In this document: piece by piece, positions 31,307 through 37,415 of the stretch | Position numbering within the stretch: position 1 is the first letter of the stretch | How the letters are laid out: each line of letters starts with the position of its first letter | Assembly (NCBI RefSeq): GCF_003236175.1 | Contig: NZ_QKTW01000016.1 | Coordinates: forward strand, 128,482 to 192,481 | Length of the DNA stretch: 64,000 bases | Direction: 5' to 3' | From: Taibaiella soli | GTDB taxonomy: Bacteria > Bacteroidota > Bacteroidia > Chitinophagales > Chitinophagaceae | Program-made: the position numbers and the translations under genes | Notes under the pieces: model-generated | What the model saw: the letters and a program-made list of their open reading frames with translations, nothing else | Database searches by the model: none | Told to the model about the DNA's origin: nothing

Positions 31307-31343
31307 AAAAACGGTCGGGCGACTAAAAGTCGTCCGACCGTTT
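31307..31343 (-). terminator. Intrinsic terminator of the MbnP/MbnH operon
   Basis: A 16-base stem at 31309-31324 and 31328-31343 (core CGGTCGG, one position G·U on the plus strand) has a three-base loop. On the minus strand it is followed by TTTTTGC. It lies about 100 bases after the stop of the MbnH-like gene. Confidence 0.85.
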
Positions 31344-31439: not shown

Positions 31440-32489
31440 TTACTTCGGTTCTGCGAAACGTGGATCTTTAACGAACGTCGTATCTGTAAGTGTTTTTAGA
31501 AATGCAATGATATCCTGCTTTTCATTGTCTGTCATCTGAATACCATTGCGCAGCGAAGTGTCCAGAGTTGCAGACTGATAAATGCCGGTTCTATAATGTT
31601 CCAGCATCGCATCCAGCGTATTAAAACGACCATCGTGTGTATACGGACGCGTGAGGTCTACGTTACGCAATGATGGCACTTTAAATTTACGCATGTCTTC
31701 CGCCAGACCAGTAATATGTGCGCGTCCGCTGTCATTGAGCGAGGCGTCCGGTATTAAGCCATTGTTACGAAATGAATAATCGGTAAACATCGGCTCTTTA
31801 TGACAGCTACCGCACTTGGCACGGAATAACGTCAGACCATTTAGCTCTTGCGCAGACAAGCTACCTGTACCACGCGCATACTGATCGTAACGGGAATTAC
31901 TGGAAATCATAGCACCCATAAACTGAGCCAGCGCTTTAAAAATCCGTTGTGAATTGACCTCCTGATCACCAAAAACAGCTTTAAACCGTTTGATGTAATC
32001 AGCATCAGCACCGACTTTTGCAATTACTTCGGGCATCGTTTCGTCCATCTCTACCGGATTCTCAATCGGGTTGATTGGTTGGTTTTCCATATTAATCACA
32101 CCACCGTCCCAAAAGAAAGTAGGCAACCATGCTTCATTAAATAAACCAGGTGCATTCCGCTTTCCGAACAAACCATTAATGCCATGACTCAGCGGATGAT
32201 CCAGATGCGAAAAAGCAGCGAACTGCTGGTGACAACTCGCACAGGAAATCGTATTGTCGCGCGACAAGCGGGTATCGTAAAACAATTTCCTGCCCAGCTG
32301 AAAACCATCTTGTGTCAACACATTGTTCTGAAAAGTGTACACAGGTTGCGGCCAGCCCTGCGGCACTTCAAATGCTACAGGCCCACCGTTGTCTTGCTGT
32401 GGATCCAGCGACGGATCTGGCTTACAGCCAACAACCGCCACTACTATCCAACAGGCTACAAACAATATTATTCCTAGATTTTTCTTCAT
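31440..32489 (-). CDS. MbnH-like di-heme cytochrome c peroxidase family lipoprotein
   Basis: The start MKKNLGIILF at 32489 gives a signal peptide with lipobox VVGC (Cys22). An upstream in-frame start at 32564 would overlap the preceding gene by 62 bases. Two c-type heme sites are present, CASCH at residues 83-87 and CGSCH at 226-230, as in the MauG/bacterial cytochrome c peroxidase family. Family motifs SHGINGLFGKRNAPGL and the PIENPVEM segment are also visible. In the best-studied relatives (MbnH), this enzyme converts a Trp of the partner MbnP to kynurenine, which creates a copper site. The MbnP-like gene directly upstream, 13 bases away, makes that assignment more likely than a plain peroxidase. 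Confidence 0.88.
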   Translation of the reverse strand: MKKNLGIILFVACWIVVAVVGCKPDPSLDPQQDNGGPVAFEVPQGWPQPVYTFQNNVLTQDGFQLGRKLFYDTRLSRDNTISCASCHQQFAAFSHLDHPLSHGINGLFGKRNAPGLFNEAWLPTFFWDGGVINMENQPINPIENPVEMDETMPEVIAKVGADADYIKRFKAVFGDQEVNSQRIFKALAQFMGAMISSNSRYDQYARGTGSLSAQELNGLTLFRAKCGSCHKEPMFTDYSFRNNGLIPDASLNDSGRAHITGLAEDMRKFKVPSLRNVDLTRPYTHDGRFNTLDAMLEHYRTGIYQSATLDTSLRNGIQMTDNEKQDIIAFLKTLTDTTFVKDPRFAEPK

Positions 32490-32502
32490 CGCAAAAAGGC
32501 AA

Positions 32503-33261
32503 TTAAGCGCCAGCGTACGTAATGGTAAACATATTTGCGTAATTATCCGAAATCGATTTTGCATCAGCGCCTGGCATGTGAATAATCATCAGGTTCGAGA
32601 AATCAATTTTGTTCGGCGAATTAAACAATTGCAGTACATCGGCCTGCAGGTGCACATGCGGCGTACTTGTATTTACCTGTATCGCCTGTGGGAAATTGAG
32701 CGTAATTGTTTTCAGCACGCTGTTCGCGCCCGAAAAACCTCCACAGTGAAACATCAGTTTCCCATCAGGCTGTGTTGACTTAGGAGAATTTCCTTCAAAC
32801 TTGAGCATGATGTAACCGGTATTCCAGCTCCAGAACATTCCGTTTACCGGGTCTAACGCACCGGTCTGCGCACCAGACACATTGTGCAAACTATCTACTC
32901 CAATGGTAAAAGTGATCGAAGAATAACTTCCGTTAGGGACATCGCTCATATCGAAACTCGTAGAAGTAAGATCTTCCTGTTGCACCAGATGATAGCTGTT
33001 TGCCTCTGTATAAGTTGCACCATTAGCGGATTTCAAGGAAACATTACTGATATAGTAATTAAAACGGCTTACAGTAAACGAATCACCATTAGCATTTGTA
33101 TACCATTGGTTATTCAGATTAAGGTTACTACCGCCGGCTACGTTAAAAAACTCCAGCTTTACTTTACCGGTTGGTGTTGTTTCGTCTTTTTTGTGGCAGG
33201 CAGAAAGCGCTACCATCGCGGCGAACGACAGCATGCTCCATATTTTTGTTTTAGTTCTCAT
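32503..33261 (-). CDS. MbnP family copper-binding lipoprotein (first copy)
   Basis: This 252-residue lipoprotein (lipobox ALSAC, Cys22) carries the MbnP-like domain: VSRFNYYISNVSL, then GSYSSITFTIGVDSLHN, GALDPVNGMFWSWNTGYI (Trp144 and Trp146) and a His-containing strand (TPHVHLQADV). In characterised MbnP, a Trp is oxidised to kynurenine by MbnH and takes part in copper binding. Here an MbnH-like gene follows immediately. Which of the two Trp would be modified cannot be told without an alignment. It is a periplasm-facing or surface lipoprotein. Confidence 0.88.
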   Translation of the reverse strand: MRTKTKIWSMLSFAAMVALSACHKKDETTPTGKVKLEFFNVAGGSNLNLNNQWYTNANGDSFTVSRFNYYISNVSLKSANGATYTEANSYHLVQQEDLTSTSFDMSDVPNGSYSSITFTIGVDSLHNVSGAQTGALDPVNGMFWSWNTGYIMLKFEGNSPKSTQPDGKLMFHCGGFSGANSVLKTITLNFPQAIQVNTSTPHVHLQADVLQLFNSPNKIDFSNLMIIHMPGADAKSISDNYANMFTITYAGA

Positions 33262-33298
33262 TGAATTCGTTTTATGTCTTTAAAGACGTTTAAAAATC

Positions 33299-33712
33299 TT
33301 AATTGTTTGGCGCCTGTTGTTGTATCCATTTCAGCACTAGCGAAATGGTGCAATTATCCAGCTTTCCTGTAGGGGGCATTGGATCTGCCGTTGAGGTCAA
33401 CTGGCTATACAACAGACTTGCCGTTGGTGTTGCAGTGTTGATGTAACCCGTCCCTGGCTTCATCAGTGCAGCATATGCAATTCCTGAATCCAGATTCAGA
33501 TTACCGGTCGGTGCACTTCCTGTATGACAACCAGATAAGGCGCAATTTTGCCGAAGCACCGGAACAATATCCCGTGCAAATGAAACGGTGTTGACAGTAT
33601 CTGTGTAACACCCAACTGGCGCTGGTGACGCCGTTTTTGAATCATCATGCTTGCAACTCGCGATGATTGTAGCAATCATTATTACTCCAAAAAAAAGAAT
33701 TCTATTCTTCAT
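33299..33712 (-). CDS. Cytochrome c-like lipoprotein with a CX4CH heme motif
   Basis: The start MKNRILFFG at 33712 (an in-frame start at 33733 gives a poorer signal peptide) leads to the lipobox IIASC (Cys20). The mature 118 residues contain RQNCALSGCHTG, a CX4CH heme-attachment-like motif (C57, C62, H63) instead of the normal CXXCH. A later Met in DPMPPTG could be the sixth heme ligand. The pattern is common in Bacteroidota cytochrome-like proteins, but covalent heme binding is not proven by it. It overlaps the second MbnP-like gene by 11 bases, so it belongs to the same operon and may carry electrons to or from the MbnH-like enzyme. Confidence 0.75.
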   Translation of the reverse strand: MKNRILFFGVIMIATIIASCKHDDSKTASPAPVGCYTDTVNTVSFARDIVPVLRQNCALSGCHTGSAPTGNLNLDSGIAYAALMKPGTGYINTATPTASLLYSQLTSTADPMPPTGKLDNCTISLVLKWIQQQAPNN

Positions 33713-34493
33713 ACTTAAACATAGACGGTACATTACTGCTAATGGTATTGCTCACAGCAGAATTATTATCTGCAGCAGTTTTTACAGACAGGTTTGCACT
33801 ATTATTGAGTGATACACCACTTAGCAATTTGGAGTAATCAATAATGATATGTACAAACTGCGATTGATCTTTTGCAATAGAATAAACCGGTGTGTGATCA
33901 GGCATAGTAACGGTGTTCAAGTGTCCATTGGTTCCGATCTTGTACGTAAATGGCTGCATTAAAGCAGTACTTCCGTTGCCGCCTGCAGTCGTATCTACAC
34001 TTCCTTCCAGATCTACGAATACATAACCATCAGGTTGTGCACTGCTGCCAAACCACATATCGGAATGATTAAGCGCGCTGTCTGTTGCAGTTGGTGTTTT
34101 TGCATTTGTCGCAGCATCCAGACCTACATTAAACATGATCGATTTATAAGAACCCGTTGGCACTTTCGCCAGGAAATAAGATTCTGTTTCCAGATCTTTC
34201 AGGATAATCACAGCATTCGGCAACGCGTATTGAGTGCCATCTGTTTTAATCATCCGGATGTTCGACAAATACAATTGTGCCTTGCTCAGCGAAATCTGGC
34301 GACCGTTGGCATCTGGATAAGCCGTACCGTAATCATCAACTTCATTAGAGTCGATATTTGTGTGCAGGTGAATGTACACAGAACCGCTGTCTACGCTGGT
34401 TGTGTTGTTATTGTTGTCGTCATTTTTCTTACAGGAAGTGCCGGCGAGCGTAAATGCTGCTGCAACAGTAAGGATCGTAAGGATTTGTTTCAT
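33702..34493 (-). CDS. MbnP family lipoprotein (second copy)
   Basis: This 263-residue lipoprotein (lipobox AGTSC, Cys21) has the same fold cues as the first MbnP copy: SLSKAQLYLSNIRMI, TGSYKSIMFNVGLD, and SDMWFGSSAQPDGYVFVDLEG with a single Trp at 147, followed by FVHIIIDYSKLL. A low-complexity Asp/Asn stretch follows the Cys. The sequence is only distantly similar to the other copy, so the two are probably not a recent duplication. The motif around the Trp differs (DMWFG against MFWSWN), which suggests a different metal site or partner. Confidence 0.8.
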   Translation of the reverse strand: MKQILTILTVAAAFTLAGTSCKKNDDNNNNTTSVDSGSVYIHLHTNIDSNEVDDYGTAYPDANGRQISLSKAQLYLSNIRMIKTDGTQYALPNAVIILKDLETESYFLAKVPTGSYKSIMFNVGLDAATNAKTPTATDSALNHSDMWFGSSAQPDGYVFVDLEGSVDTTAGGNGSTALMQPFTYKIGTNGHLNTVTMPDHTPVYSIAKDQSQFVHIIIDYSKLLSGVSLNNSANLSVKTAADNNSAVSNTISSNVPSMFKYEE

Positions 34494-34513
34494 TTGATTT
34501 TGGTTATTGTTTT

Positions 34514-34918
34514 TTAAGGATGTGTTTGTAAATAAATAGTTTTAGTAGCCACTGTTCCGTCGTGGTCCACAACAGCTATAAGGTCCAATCGCAGACTGGT
34601 TGCCTGTGCCACACTATTAAACCAGGTATCGCTGATATCAAAATGATCATCGTGTACGTGTTCGGCATCATCATAAACGATAAAGCCAGTAGATGTATCC
34701 GTGATCTTCAGCTCGTAACCGTGCAATTCTGTAACGAAGGTTACTTTGGCATTAATGTGAACACTGTCTCCTTGCTGAAAAATCTGTCCCGGATTTGGTG
34801 ACATAATAGTCATCTGAACCTGATCTGCAGTGGCTGGTGTATTATCTTTTTTCTGACAGGAAGTTGCACCGATCGCCAATAAAATAATACCCAGAATTCC
34901 TGTTTTAAGAAAGCGCAT
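34514..34918 (-). CDS. His-containing lipoprotein with Ig-like fold
   Basis: This 134-residue lipoprotein (lipobox GATSC, Cys21) has beta-strand-like sequence consistent with a small immunoglobulin-like domain (PNPGQIFQQGDSVHINAKV, then LHGYELKITD). A His cluster, EHVHDDHFD (H87, H89, H92), and a nearby Trp (DTWFN) could form a metal site. I cannot name the family with certainty. DUF4625-like sequences have a similar outline. It lies between the barrel gene and the second MbnP gene with short gaps (27 and 20 bases), so it is part of the metal/redox operon. Confidence 0.65.
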   Translation of the reverse strand: MRFLKTGILGIILLAIGATSCQKKDNTPATADQVQMTIMSPNPGQIFQQGDSVHINAKVTFVTELHGYELKITDTSTGFIVYDDAEHVHDDHFDISDTWFNSVAQATSLRLDLIAVVDHDGTVATKTIYLQTHP

Positions 34919-34945
34919 TGTAAAATTTTTTATTACTGTATTGAA

Positions 34946-35869
34946 TTAAAAAAGAAAGAAAAAGCCAGTTTCCAGACGTGTTTTAGTGACTACATTACCT
35001 TCCGCATAGTTTTGCGCAATGGGCAATGAATAAGTCAGCTGCAAACCAAACTGTTTGTAATAAGCCTGTGCTCCCGCTGATGCATAGAAAATACTGCCGC
35101 CAGTCTGCTCATTAAGCCAGTGACGGGAATAATTATCATAGTCGTGCAGCGTATATTCATAACGGAAACCTGCCTGTGGCAATAGCTTCCATTTGCTTTT
35201 CTGCCACCAGTAAAAGCCCATCAATCCGGTACCAAGACGGTTGCCATACTTATAATCGTATTTATTCGCCGTCGTCAGTGTGTAAGTTGCATCAAGGTTA
35301 ATGCCTGCTTTTTTATAACGGATTGTATAATTGGCATTGGTGATAAAATCCCAGGAGCCAGTTCCTGGCTGCGTATTCGGCAACCCGAGTTTGTCCATTT
35401 CGGTAATACCCGTGTATTTACCGGTCGGTGCTTTTACGCCGCCGCCAACCCAGAGCGATTGCTGCCATTTCTTGTCTTTATACTTTTCCGGCGCAATAAT
35501 AGAAACTGTGGCCAGCGCAGAAGCATCACCGATGCCGCTGGAATAAGTGCGCACACCATCTTTTACCTGCAGATTTGTGGTATACGGAAGAAAAGCAAAA
35601 AGCTGTACGCGTTTGCTCAAATGATACCTTCCCCAAACCTGAAATGTGTTATAATATTCCGACGACGGTTCTTTAGGATCACTCGGAAGCAGGCCCGGAT
35701 GTGTACTGTTGATGCTGCGGTATTGATATTGGAGACCTATAAAATGGTTTTCATACTGGGGTAATATGCCCAGATATTGATTGCTCGCCGAGCATCCGCA
35801 TACATTGCAAGCCAAAGCATTGCCTGTTGCCAGAACGCCAAGCAGCAAACAACGAAGGAAATATTTCAT
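34946..35869 (-). CDS. Outer-membrane beta-barrel protein with N-terminal CxxCxC motif
   Basis: This 307-residue exported protein has a signal peptide ending at NALA and a mature N-terminus that begins directly with CNVCGCS (C21, C24, C26). The rest is made of alternating amphipathic strands with aromatic girdles (GRYHLSKRVQLFAFLPY, GGGVKAPTGKYTG, TGFFFLF at the end), which indicates an outer-membrane barrel of about 12 strands of the transporter or phenol-degradation MetA-like type. The terminal Cys cluster on the mature end suggests metal handling. The position at the head of the MbnP genes points to copper. Confidence 0.75.
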   Translation of the reverse strand: MKYFLRCLLLGVLATGNALACNVCGCSASNQYLGILPQYENHFIGLQYQYRSINSTHPGLLPSDPKEPSSEYYNTFQVWGRYHLSKRVQLFAFLPYTTNLQVKDGVRTYSSGIGDASALATVSIIAPEKYKDKKWQQSLWVGGGVKAPTGKYTGITEMDKLGLPNTQPGTGSWDFITNANYTIRYKKAGINLDATYTLTTANKYDYKYGNRLGTGLMGFYWWQKSKWKLLPQAGFRYEYTLHDYDNYSRHWLNEQTGGSIFYASAGAQAYYKQFGLQLTYSLPIAQNYAEGNVVTKTRLETGFFFLF

Positions 35870-35982
35870 CCTGAAATGTTTTGCTGATTACAATAAATGA
35901 ATGGAGCGCAATACTATACGCATATGCATGAGCTTCTGATTGTCAGAAACAGCTACAAAAAGGCGCATAAACGCGTGTAAAA

Positions 35983-36372
35983 TCAGCAGGAGAGCGGCGG
36001 ATGGAAAACGGATGAGAGCGGGTCGTATCCGGCCGGACAACGGAAATAACTATGGAATGTCTTTTCTTCGGAAGGATTGAAAACGCTGAAGGCAATCTTT
36101 TCAGGAATGATGCAAGGCGAAACTTCGATCTTATCCCATTTTACGGAAGGAAGATTCTTACCGGTATTTTGTTCGTTGCCTTCGTCTACTTTGTTGAGCT
36201 GTTTGCGGAGGTAACATTTACCGCAACAATGCATCTGTGGTTTGTCTTTGTTTTCACAAAGCTGCTGGGCCACATATTTTTTATTCCATTCGTACCAAGC
36301 CACTACGCCCAGCTTTACCGTACACTGGTAGCCGACGCAGAGCAATAATATGAACGCAATAAATTTTTGCAT
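35983..36372 (-). CDS. Small Cys-rich membrane-anchored protein at the head of the metal cluster
   Basis: This 129-residue protein has one N-terminal membrane helix (FIAFILLLCVGYQCTVKLGVV). It is followed by a conserved-looking block, WNKKYVAQQLCENKDKPQMHCCGKCYL, with Cys39, Cys49, Cys50, Cys53 and a His, that could bind a metal ion or a cluster. It ends in FHPPLSC. I have seen similar small proteins beside metal-receptor genes of Bacteroidota, but no function is known to me. It has its own -7 box and lies 113 bases upstream of the barrel gene on the same strand. Confidence 0.65.
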   Translation of the reverse strand: MQKFIAFILLLCVGYQCTVKLGVVAWYEWNKKYVAQQLCENKDKPQMHCCGKCYLRKQLNKVDEGNEQNTGKNLPSVKWDKIEVSPCIIPEKIAFSVFNPSEEKTFHSYFRCPAGYDPLSSVFHPPLSC

Positions 36373-36377
36373 TGATG

Positions 36378-36385
36378 CAAAGGTA
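36378..36385 (-). promoter_or_regulatory. -7 promoter box for the small Cys-rich protein
   Basis: The minus strand reads TACCTTTG, exact TAnnTTTG, ending six bases before the ATG at 36372. The same octamer is used at 8408-8415 ahead of the other small Cys protein. Confidence 0.55.
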
Positions 36386-36506
36386 GTGGCTGGAAATTTG
36401 ATTTAGGAAAAAAGACCCGGATTTTTTTCTGTCCACCAAAAGCGAATCATTTTCGCTAAATTACTGATTGGTAGTTTTCAGAAACAAACATCTAAACATT
36501 ATTCAC

Positions 36507-37415
36507 ATGGGAAAAGAAAAAAGTAAATGGGACGACAAAGACATCAAACGATATCTCGTAAAACCAGACAAGGAGATTTCCCTGAAAGATTATACTACAG
36601 ACGAAAAAAATAAACCGTTTGATAAAGAAACGGGAGCGAAGCGACTTGAAGAGGGGCTTGAAGAATTAGCCCTTTTACAGGATAAGCTTTATGCTTCAGG
36701 CAAATACAGCGTACTCATCGTCTTACAGGCAATGGATGCTGCGGGAAAAGACAGCACGATCAGACATCTGATGTCTGGTTTTAATCCGGCCGGCGTAAAA
36801 GTGGTAAGTTTTAAATCGCCTTCAAGCAAAGAACTGGGACATGATTATTTCTGGCGTCATTACAAAGAATTGCCATCGAGAGGAGAAATCGGCATTTTTA
36901 ATCGTTCCCATTACGAAAACGTACTGGTCACGAAAGTGCATCCGGAGATGATTCTTAACGCCAATCTGCCCGAAATCAATTCTGAAAAAGACATCGATAA
37001 AAAATTCTGGGAAACCCGTTATCGTCAGATCCGCAATTTCGAAAGAACACTTTTCGAGAACGGGACGATTATTATGAAATTCTTTTTACACGTATCAAAA
37101 GACGAACAGAAAAAGCGCTTTCTGGAGCGCATTGAAAACCCGCATAAAAACTGGAAGTTTTCATTGGCAGATCTTAAAGAACGCGCACGCTGGAATGATT
37201 ATCAGGAGGCATATGCTGATGCGCTCAGCAATACATCCACTGAATATGCACCATGGTATATCATTCCCGCCGATGACAAATGGTTTATGCGGATATTGAT
37301 TGGAAAGATTGTCCATTCTGAATTTGAAAAAATGAAACTCTCTTATCCTGAGGTTTCGAAAGAAACTAAAAATGAATTACTCAAAGCTTATGATGTGTTG
37401 ATGAATGAGAAATAG
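36507..37415 (+). CDS. ppk2: Polyphosphate kinase 2 family protein
   Basis: This 302-residue cytoplasmic enzyme moves phosphate between polyphosphate and nucleotides. The ATG at 36507 gives the usual N-terminus MGKEKSKW. Family motifs are the Walker A-like AAGKDSTIRH near residue 73, SRGEIGIFNRSHYENVLV, the lid region NWKFSLADLKERARW and APWYIIPADDKW. The length and motif context resemble the single-domain class often called polyphosphate:nucleotide phosphotransferase (class III, able to use AMP and ADP), but the class cannot be settled by eye. It is a single gene whose 3' side carries a long octamer inverted repeat. Confidence 0.9.
   Translation: MGKEKSKWDDKDIKRYLVKPDKEISLKDYTTDEKNKPFDKETGAKRLEEGLEELALLQDKLYASGKYSVLIVLQAMDAAGKDSTIRHLMSGFNPAGVKVVSFKSPSSKELGHDYFWRHYKELPSRGEIGIFNRSHYENVLVTKVHPEMILNANLPEINSEKDIDKKFWETRYRQIRNFERTLFENGTIIMKFFLHVSKDEQKKRFLERIENPHKNWKFSLADLKERARWNDYQEAYADALSNTSTEYAPWYIIPADDKWFMRILIGKIVHSEFEKMKLSYPEVSKETKNELLKAYDVLMNEK

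Follow-up and report, generated by a model that had tools for sequence, protein, structure and literature searches.

The subject of this report is a seven-gene cluster of the Bacteroidota species Taibaiella soli that runs on the minus strand from position 36372 to position 31440 of the 64,000-nucleotide (nt) stretch analysed here (the window; part of contig NZ_QKTW01000016.1). With moderate confidence, we read it as one copper-handling operon in which gene 1 acts as a copper-sensing upstream open reading frame (ORF), followed by two pairs of partners: a canonical MbnP (MbnP-A) with an MbnH-like enzyme, and a divergent MbnP (MbnP-B) with a cytochrome-like lipoprotein bearing a CX4CH heme motif. 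By analogy, gene 1 is probably a CruR- or CutF-type copper sensor of Bacteroidota that acts as a nascent chain, and the operon would most likely be switched on when copper is scarce. An earlier note, made from the sequence alone, had proposed a copper capture or relay pathway in which one MbnH-like enzyme may serve two MbnP substrates, with the barrel and the small proteins as further carriers. All its ORFs are present in the order and on the strand described, and its copper theme holds with one canonical MbnP–MbnH pair; the two-substrate enzyme was not borne out.

35983 to 36372, minus strand: gene 1 (P7), 129 amino acids, with an N-terminal hydrophobic segment, a Cys core (C39/C49/C53) and a C-terminal FHPP
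34946 to 35869, minus strand: gene 2, predicted outer-membrane beta-barrel with CNVCGC at the mature N-terminus (assigned by eye)
34514 to 34918, minus strand: gene 3, His-rich lipoprotein (EHVHDDH), weakly DUF4625/Big_7-like
33702 to 34493, minus strand: gene 4, MbnP-B, an MbnP that lacks the WxW motif and contains DMWFG
33299 to 33712, minus strand: gene 5, CX4CH mono-heme cytochrome-like lipoprotein, putative MbnP-B partner
32503 to 33261, minus strand: gene 6, MbnP-A, with the canonical WxW (W144, W146) and H172
31440 to 32489, minus strand: gene 7, MbnH-like di-heme lipoprotein (CASCH, CGSCH)

The case for a sensor starts with the family of gene 1, whose members begin with a hydrophobic segment and carry a CX6-11CX3C core. 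A linker without sequence conservation but nearly constant in length then leads to a C-terminal tail, which mostly reads [IV]F[HRQ]PP. The full profile of this family matches 161 of 295 genomes of the class, and a profile of the first 70 residues of gene 1 matches 76 of 198 genomes of the phylum. With duplicate sequences and ORFs without a stop dropped, a Pro-Pro pair (PP) lies within the last 15 residues of all 111 distinct full-profile members, 1–7 residues before the end, vs 16 of 1019 other genes of the fetched loci. Because the tail belonged to the full profile, the count was repeated with the tail-blind profile of the first 70 residues. Of 70 distinct complete members counted in this way, 69 have PP among their last 15 residues, a sample that represents 70 of 101 profile matches (30 arriving as loci and 40 fetched from weaker matches) and includes the window copy itself. 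The single exception has its PP 17 residues from the protein end, and the members new to the analysis, one of them the window copy, have PP within that range in 54 of 55 cases.

The rest of the protein is constrained in an uneven manner. CX6-11CX3C is present in all 166 distinct members, and the last Cys and the first Pro are separated by 63–75 positions (median 67; 72 in the window copy), with standard deviations of 2.25 and 3.15 in two member sets. Mean pairwise identity is 0.46 in the core and 0.59 in the tail, yet only 0.09 in the linker; that is, the linker keeps its length and not its sequence. The earlier note had counted gene 1 among its carriers, a part of the claim that has become less likely because the constant-length linker and the C-terminal PP resemble a regulatory upstream ORF. 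A related explanation, that gene 1 is a membrane-anchored Cys metallochaperone working as a finished protein, with the PP tail serving for instance in docking, would accommodate the hydrophobic N-terminus (19-residue mean hydropathy above 1.6 in 93% of the 166 members), the three Cys invariant across 17 aligned members and the weak match to Shisa_N that the window copy gives. It sits poorly with a linker that is unconserved but near-constant in length, with a PP only 1–7 residues from the stop, and with the promoter-like box and long downstream gap described below. We consider it unlikely.

The position of the gene points the same way as its sequence. In a hand-picked survey of 80 regions, one per genome, taken from the best ~150 gene-1 profile matches, 75 of 86 gene-1 copies have downstream of them, on the same strand, an MbnP, an MbnH, a barrel, a CX4CH protein, a gene-3-like protein or a protein of 600–900 amino acids (MbnP behind 30 copies, MbnH behind 17, barrels behind 33 and 600–900-residue proteins behind 36). 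Domain scans of ten hand-picked downstream proteins returned TonB-receptor domains in four, which were all four of the scanned 600–900-residue proteins, PepSY_TM in two (L071, L130), Phenol_MetA_deg in three (L060, L123, L180) and YtkA in one. In line with the survey of gene order that the earlier note had suggested, gene 1, the barrel, MbnP-B and the CX4CH gene occur together again in other genomes, and because they do, the arrangement is not a chance one.

Gene 1 is also set apart from the genes around it. At a median of 82 nt, the gap that follows it (117 copies, counting duplicates) is wider than the 36 nt found for 820 same-strand gaps below 300 nt. A TAnnTTTG box, which PMC7366714 gives as the Bacteroidota -7 consensus, lies within 100 nt upstream in 63 of 106 gene-1 copies, compared with 51 of 353 controls in one set and 44 of 163 in another. 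It is about as frequent next to a divergent upstream gene as next to one that is not divergent. The median distance from the start of the box to the gene-1 ATG is 15 nt (13 nt in the window), a spacing that may be biased in that the ATG was picked by its distance to the Cys core. With the box so close to the ATG, the gene 1 message may be near-leaderless. The proposed control elements of the window are as follows.

36378 to 36385, minus strand: -7 box TACCTTTG, matching Bacteroidota TAnnTTTG, with its start 13 nt ahead of the gene 1 ATG
36013 to 36102, minus strand: stretch with more C than G in the linker region, a candidate Rho-loading region (window skew 0.089)
35995 to 36000, minus strand: codons of P125-P126 (FHPP-LSC-stop), the proposed arrest site
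35870 to 35982, minus strand: intergenic region of 113 nt from the end of gene 1 to the barrel start, RNA fold of -40.4 kcal/mol (z -3.3)

Several loci carry two copies of gene 1 in a single region (L062, L067, L093, L114, L119 and L136). The copies of L093 lie directly in tandem, followed by a 779-residue protein. L067 (G187) has a window-like order of barrel-sized protein, MbnP-B, CX4CH, MbnP-A and MbnH, and immediately behind the MbnH gene come a second copy of gene 1 and a further WxW MbnP, which suggests two sensor-led units in tandem. Outside the class, gene-1 relatives (L183, L190, L193-L196, L201, L203, L204 and L207) end in IDHPP rather than [IV]FHPP, and usually have a protein of TonB-receptor size behind them.

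Among the closest known counterparts is CruR of Bordetella pertussis, a DUF2946 protein that is described as arresting translation in vitro at RAPP (PMC12992588), with a constant 45-residue spacer from CXXC to RAPP (PMC9426467) and an operon type marked by a TonB receptor and PepSY_TM (PMC12914433). As far as these accounts go, gene 1 resembles CruR in heading copper-type operons with TonB receptor, PepSY_TM and MbnPH-like genes (PMC9426467, PMC12992588), and in its hydrophobic N-terminus (an export signal in CruR), Cys metal motif and PP near the C-terminus. Both keep a conserved Cys-to-Pro spacing through a spacer of constant length and free sequence, and both have a C-over-G stretch near the 3′ end, which in CruR is the C>G bubble of a Rho-dependent terminator. 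Unlike CruR, gene 1 has no PF11162 match and mostly an FHPP-type tail in place of RAPP, counts about 67 positions rather than 45 residues, and uses CX6-11CX3C rather than CXXC. A recent survey (PMC12992588) places RAPP/RGPP arrest peptides ahead of copper genes in various lineages, with Bacteroidota not among them, whereas it describes those ahead of TonB-related genes as present in Gram-negative bacteria generally.

A second comparison is offered by the CutF-like proteins, defined by a signal peptide and PP in the last 15 residues, of which PMC9973294 catalogues thousands, with Bacteroidota included in its list D. Gene 1 fits the published filters for size, PP position and neighbouring gene, with 129 amino acids (<150), PP at 125-126 and a same-strand gene 113 nt away (<1000). 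It also has CxxxC, a metal-type gene downstream and an N-terminal hydrophobic segment that may be a signal peptide. The likeness to CutF is one of features that may not reflect homology, and the stem-loop opening of CutF is poorly supported here. The gene-1 family may already be among the entries of list D; the parts of PMC9973294 that cover the CutF-like list make no mention of its tail or of a link to Bacteroidota MbnP. Upstream ORFs of Bacteroidota sec genes likewise keep a proline at their C-terminus, as outlined in PMC10987492. Gene 1 shares their phylum and C-terminal proline, but differs in ending in PP (theirs is NSP/NAP), in its Cys core and in the metal-type genes behind it. Among the papers listed by a literature search that covered few subscription journals, none deals with the gene-1 family or with MbnPs lacking WxW.

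Following the CruR precedent, the operon could work as follows. By the time the C-terminal FHPP slows translation, the Cys core of gene 1 would be emerging from the ribosome. At low copper, the stalled ribosome would block Rho and the operon would be transcribed; copper bound to the Cys core would lift the stall, allowing Rho to terminate ahead of the barrel gene. This low-copper stall logic is carried over from CruR by analogy. The chances are about evenly balanced that gene 1 represents a phylum-wide class of copper-responsive arrest peptides, with an [IV]F[HRQ]PP-like tail and a 67-position Cys-to-Pro ruler, governing Bacteroidota copper acquisition including a kynurenine-free MbnP–CX4CH pathway.

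The nucleotide sequence around gene 1 was examined with this mechanism in mind. C exceeds G in the coding stretch 120-30 nt before the stop in 96% of 92 gene-1 copies vs 31% of 194 other genes, a pattern that fits a Rho mechanism without proving it. Stretches between gene 1 and the next gene fold more stably than control gaps (median z -1.82 vs -1.04, p = 0.003) and form more stop-to-start pairs (7.3 in 93 gene-1 stretches vs 3.9 in 150 control gaps), in a comparison whose controls were not length-matched. In the window, a slightly longer stretch around the 113-nt region gave z -2.8. A CutF-type stem opening was considered and not adopted: when the 5′ side is kept open, the accessibility of the barrel start in the window changes by 0.009 only, and the gain over length-matched controls is marginal.

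The second half of the reading concerns the two MbnPs, both of which are, as the earlier note held, MbnP lipoproteins. They exceed the Pfam cut-off of 27 bits for PF20243 with 192.6 bits (8.2e-57; MbnP-A) and 98.1 bits (7.5e-28; MbnP-B). Single-sequence PDB searches with either protein gave no match at E<=1; a profile search found 7L6G, the MbnP of Methylosinus trichosporium, as a weak match (0.0026), and the profile alignment locates its WxW pair and a His. MbnP-A carries all three: FWSWN with W144 and W146, and H172 aligned with the 7L6G His (MVHVGS). In MbnP-B, Phe and Ser occupy the first and second Trp columns and Lys the His172 column. Asked whether either copy bears the kynurenine-forming Trp, a point on which the earlier note had made its pathway depend, the alignment thus gives a divided answer, with MbnP-A carrying it and MbnP-B not at the aligned position. 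MbnP-B does retain a Trp one position off the canonical one, next to a Met, and an alternative gap could align its Trp147 with Trp144 of MbnP-A, but even then MbnP-B would have neither the second Trp nor His172.

These residues divide the family by neighbour. Among 79 distinct aligned MbnPs (those shorter than 200 amino acids left out; the misaligned L112_2940 kept), Trp144, Trp146 and His172 are all kept in 34 of 34 that stand directly before MbnH. Directly before a CX4CH gene, Trp144 is kept in 1 of 17, Trp146 in none of 17 and His172 in 1 of 17. The remaining 28 are mixed (15 before another neighbour, six with the opposite strand next, five before a barrel, one before an MbnP and one before gene 1). 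In a tree of 78 MbnPs, built without L112_2940 on 276 columns that included the Trp columns, a branch supported at 100/99 separates the 31 rows lacking WxW from all others; three of these 31 have a Trp at column 144.

Gene order shows the same division from the side of the partner. Of 26 CX4CH genes in the fetched loci, 18 follow an MbnP lacking WxW and none a WxW MbnP, the others being preceded by another gene (four), a CX4CH gene (two), a barrel (one) or the stretch end (one). MbnH stands directly downstream of 38 of 54 WxW MbnPs, a count in which a narrower WxW pattern misbinned three MbnH-paired MbnPs as lacking the motif, although both Trp are present on alignment. In the 80-region survey, eight of the nine operons with an MbnP lacking WxW and a CX4CH gene are without MbnH; the ninth (L067) has the window order with both pairs. 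In three genomes that hold such operons and are 97-100% complete, G011 (L101), G159 (L061) and G015 (L060), no TIGR04039 match was found at E<=1e-20, whereas the seven other genomes of the hand-picked ten have 1 to 5 matches each. G011 and G159 have one MbnP each and G015 two. The B kind of MbnP can thus exist without MbnH. As a separate observation, L053 (3639-11744, G418) holds three MbnPs lacking WxW and one MbnH-like gene in ~8 kb.

That MbnH modifies both MbnPs in a copper relay, with the small proteins as carriers, is suggested by the shared PF20243 membership, by the single MbnH in a common operon and by the displaced Trp and adjacent Met of MbnP-B. We nonetheless judge it very improbable: every member of the B clade has lost WxW and most have also lost His172, three genomes with the B kind have no TIGR04039 match at the threshold given, most surveyed operons of this type lack MbnH, and the clade is paired with CX4CH genes instead. 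One enzyme for both substrates was therefore rejected on residues, clade and genomes alike.

In the characterised MbnP/MbnH pair, the protein acquires a kynurenine-containing Cu(I) site, and it is the first Trp of WxW that reportedly becomes kynurenine (Manesis, in 2021). MbnP-A and gene 7 are like the Methylosinus trichosporium pair in family, WxW, His and adjacency of the genes, and gene 7 would be expected to convert the corresponding Trp of MbnP-A into kynurenine to yield a Cu(I) site. MbnP-B, in turn, would be a sister protein that has lost the kynurenine site and has the CX4CH mono-heme lipoprotein as its partner instead. Its AlphaFold model, of modest confidence at a pLDDT of 58, has 7L6G as its top fold match (Foldseek 7.3e-5; with VIA, Z 10.0 and root-mean-square deviation 3.7 over 180 residues), and on this model MbnP-B still has the MbnP fold, in contrast to its missing WxW and aligned His and its link to a mono-heme lipoprotein. 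Within its clade, M146 is present in 31 of 31 rows and H42, H44 and H215 in 26 of 31 each (L112_2940 left out), which makes these four residues a possible alternative metal site, perhaps with the cytochrome as electron partner. Alternatively, MbnP-B may no longer bind metal and serve only as a scaffold or cytochrome partner, for example by exchanging electrons with the CX4CH protein, which would explain the loss of WxW and His together with a mono-heme cytochrome-like neighbour. The conserved Met and His residues and the copper-type operon speak against this, and we regard it as somewhat unlikely.

TonB receptors and Phenol_MetA_deg-like barrels have no metal specificity. An operon for another metal (iron, zinc, nickel) or for oxidative stress could therefore look similar, and some CutF-like proteins might, according to PMC9973294, bind other metals. 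The combination of MbnP/MbnH and PepSY_TM is nevertheless like the copper operons described in PMC9426467 and PMC12914433, and the CutF-like proteins with Cys motifs are presented in PMC9973294 as lying mostly upstream of copper genes, so that a different metal or a role in oxidative stress appears quite improbable.

A number of observations weigh against our interpretation. The gene-1 family is not DUF2946 (zero PF11162 matches in its own genome, none among the families matched by 17 members), and its tail has no RAPP, the window copy ending in FHPP. Full-profile matches are missing from 134 of 295 class genomes, and the compared genomes belong to related species, which means that the counts are not independent. 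Five of the 86 surveyed gene-1 copies have no same-strand gene within 300 nt downstream. Of 115 copies with a called upstream neighbour, 44 have a divergent gene there and 40 an ORF on their own strand more than 60 nt away, but in 31 a same-strand ORF lies within 60 nt, some of these perhaps spurious. The second MbnP–MbnH pair of the T. soli genome has no gene 1, and such a pair thus does not need it. At the RNA level, the accessibility gain over length-matched controls is weak (one-sided p = 0.04 overall). The C-over-G excess falls mostly on codon positions 1 and 2 across the family, is not significant at fourfold sites and is absent from the intergenic region alone, and may hence reflect linker composition; as proof of a rut site it is weakened accordingly. 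Finally, gene 7 matches TIGR04039 at 1.4e-68 with 231 bits, under the cut-off of 362.85, although none of the matches in the ten hand-picked genomes exceeds it either.

Apart from that cut-off, the MbnH-like label given by the earlier note to gene 7 is supported by a CCP_MauG match (8.8e-54), two CXXCH hemes and a gene adjoining a WxW MbnP. The best solved relative is 6e1c (4.6e-49), a di-heme enzyme that we take to be the MbnH of Methylosinus trichosporium. Gene 5 is like PSCyt1 (PF07635) in its heme motif and a weak profile match (19.7 bits, under the cut-off of 22), and unlike it in its CX4CH spacing and link to an MbnP lacking WxW. The label of a His-cluster lipoprotein is fair for gene 3, whose Pfam matches to DUF4625 and Big_7 are both under cut-off. 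The gene 2 barrel has no Pfam match of its own, and its structure model reaches a pLDDT of 32 only; barrel and His lipoprotein would act on the outer membrane side, and may or may not be carriers as the earlier note proposed. PHROGs searches with genes 1-3 gave no matches. The motifs CNVCGC, DMWFG, FWSWN and CX4CH were all found as the earlier note had quoted them.

In transcription order, the intergenic gaps are 113, 27, 20, -11, 37 and 13 nt. Starts were refined by eye, with 32489 likelier than 32564 for gene 7 and 33712 likelier for gene 5, which creates the 11-nt overlap with the end of MbnP-B. Downstream of the operon lies a further feature:

31309 to 31343, strand unassigned: inverted repeat of 16 pairs, possible operon terminator

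The scan reports this terminator-like site on the plus strand; being symmetrical, the repeat could also terminate the minus-strand operon. Immediately upstream of gene 1, a divergent gene (36468-37415, plus strand), whose true start is probably a later ATG, encodes what looks like a polyphosphate kinase 2. Across the T. soli genome, MbnP and TIGR04039 each match three genes. Two of the MbnPs and one MbnH lie in the window, and a canonical pair sits on another contig. The third MauG/MbnH-like gene (G000:C19:167958-168803) has no MbnP match on the same contig. PF20243 itself is common, being found in 218 of 295 sampled genomes of the class and 334 of 396 of the order.

If gene 1 does act as proposed, its family would fill the Bacteroidota gap in copper arrest peptides with a different tail, and a large phylum would gain a predicted and easily tested copper switch. 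The split of MbnP into two partner types, in turn, predicts which MbnPs should carry kynurenine and which should not.

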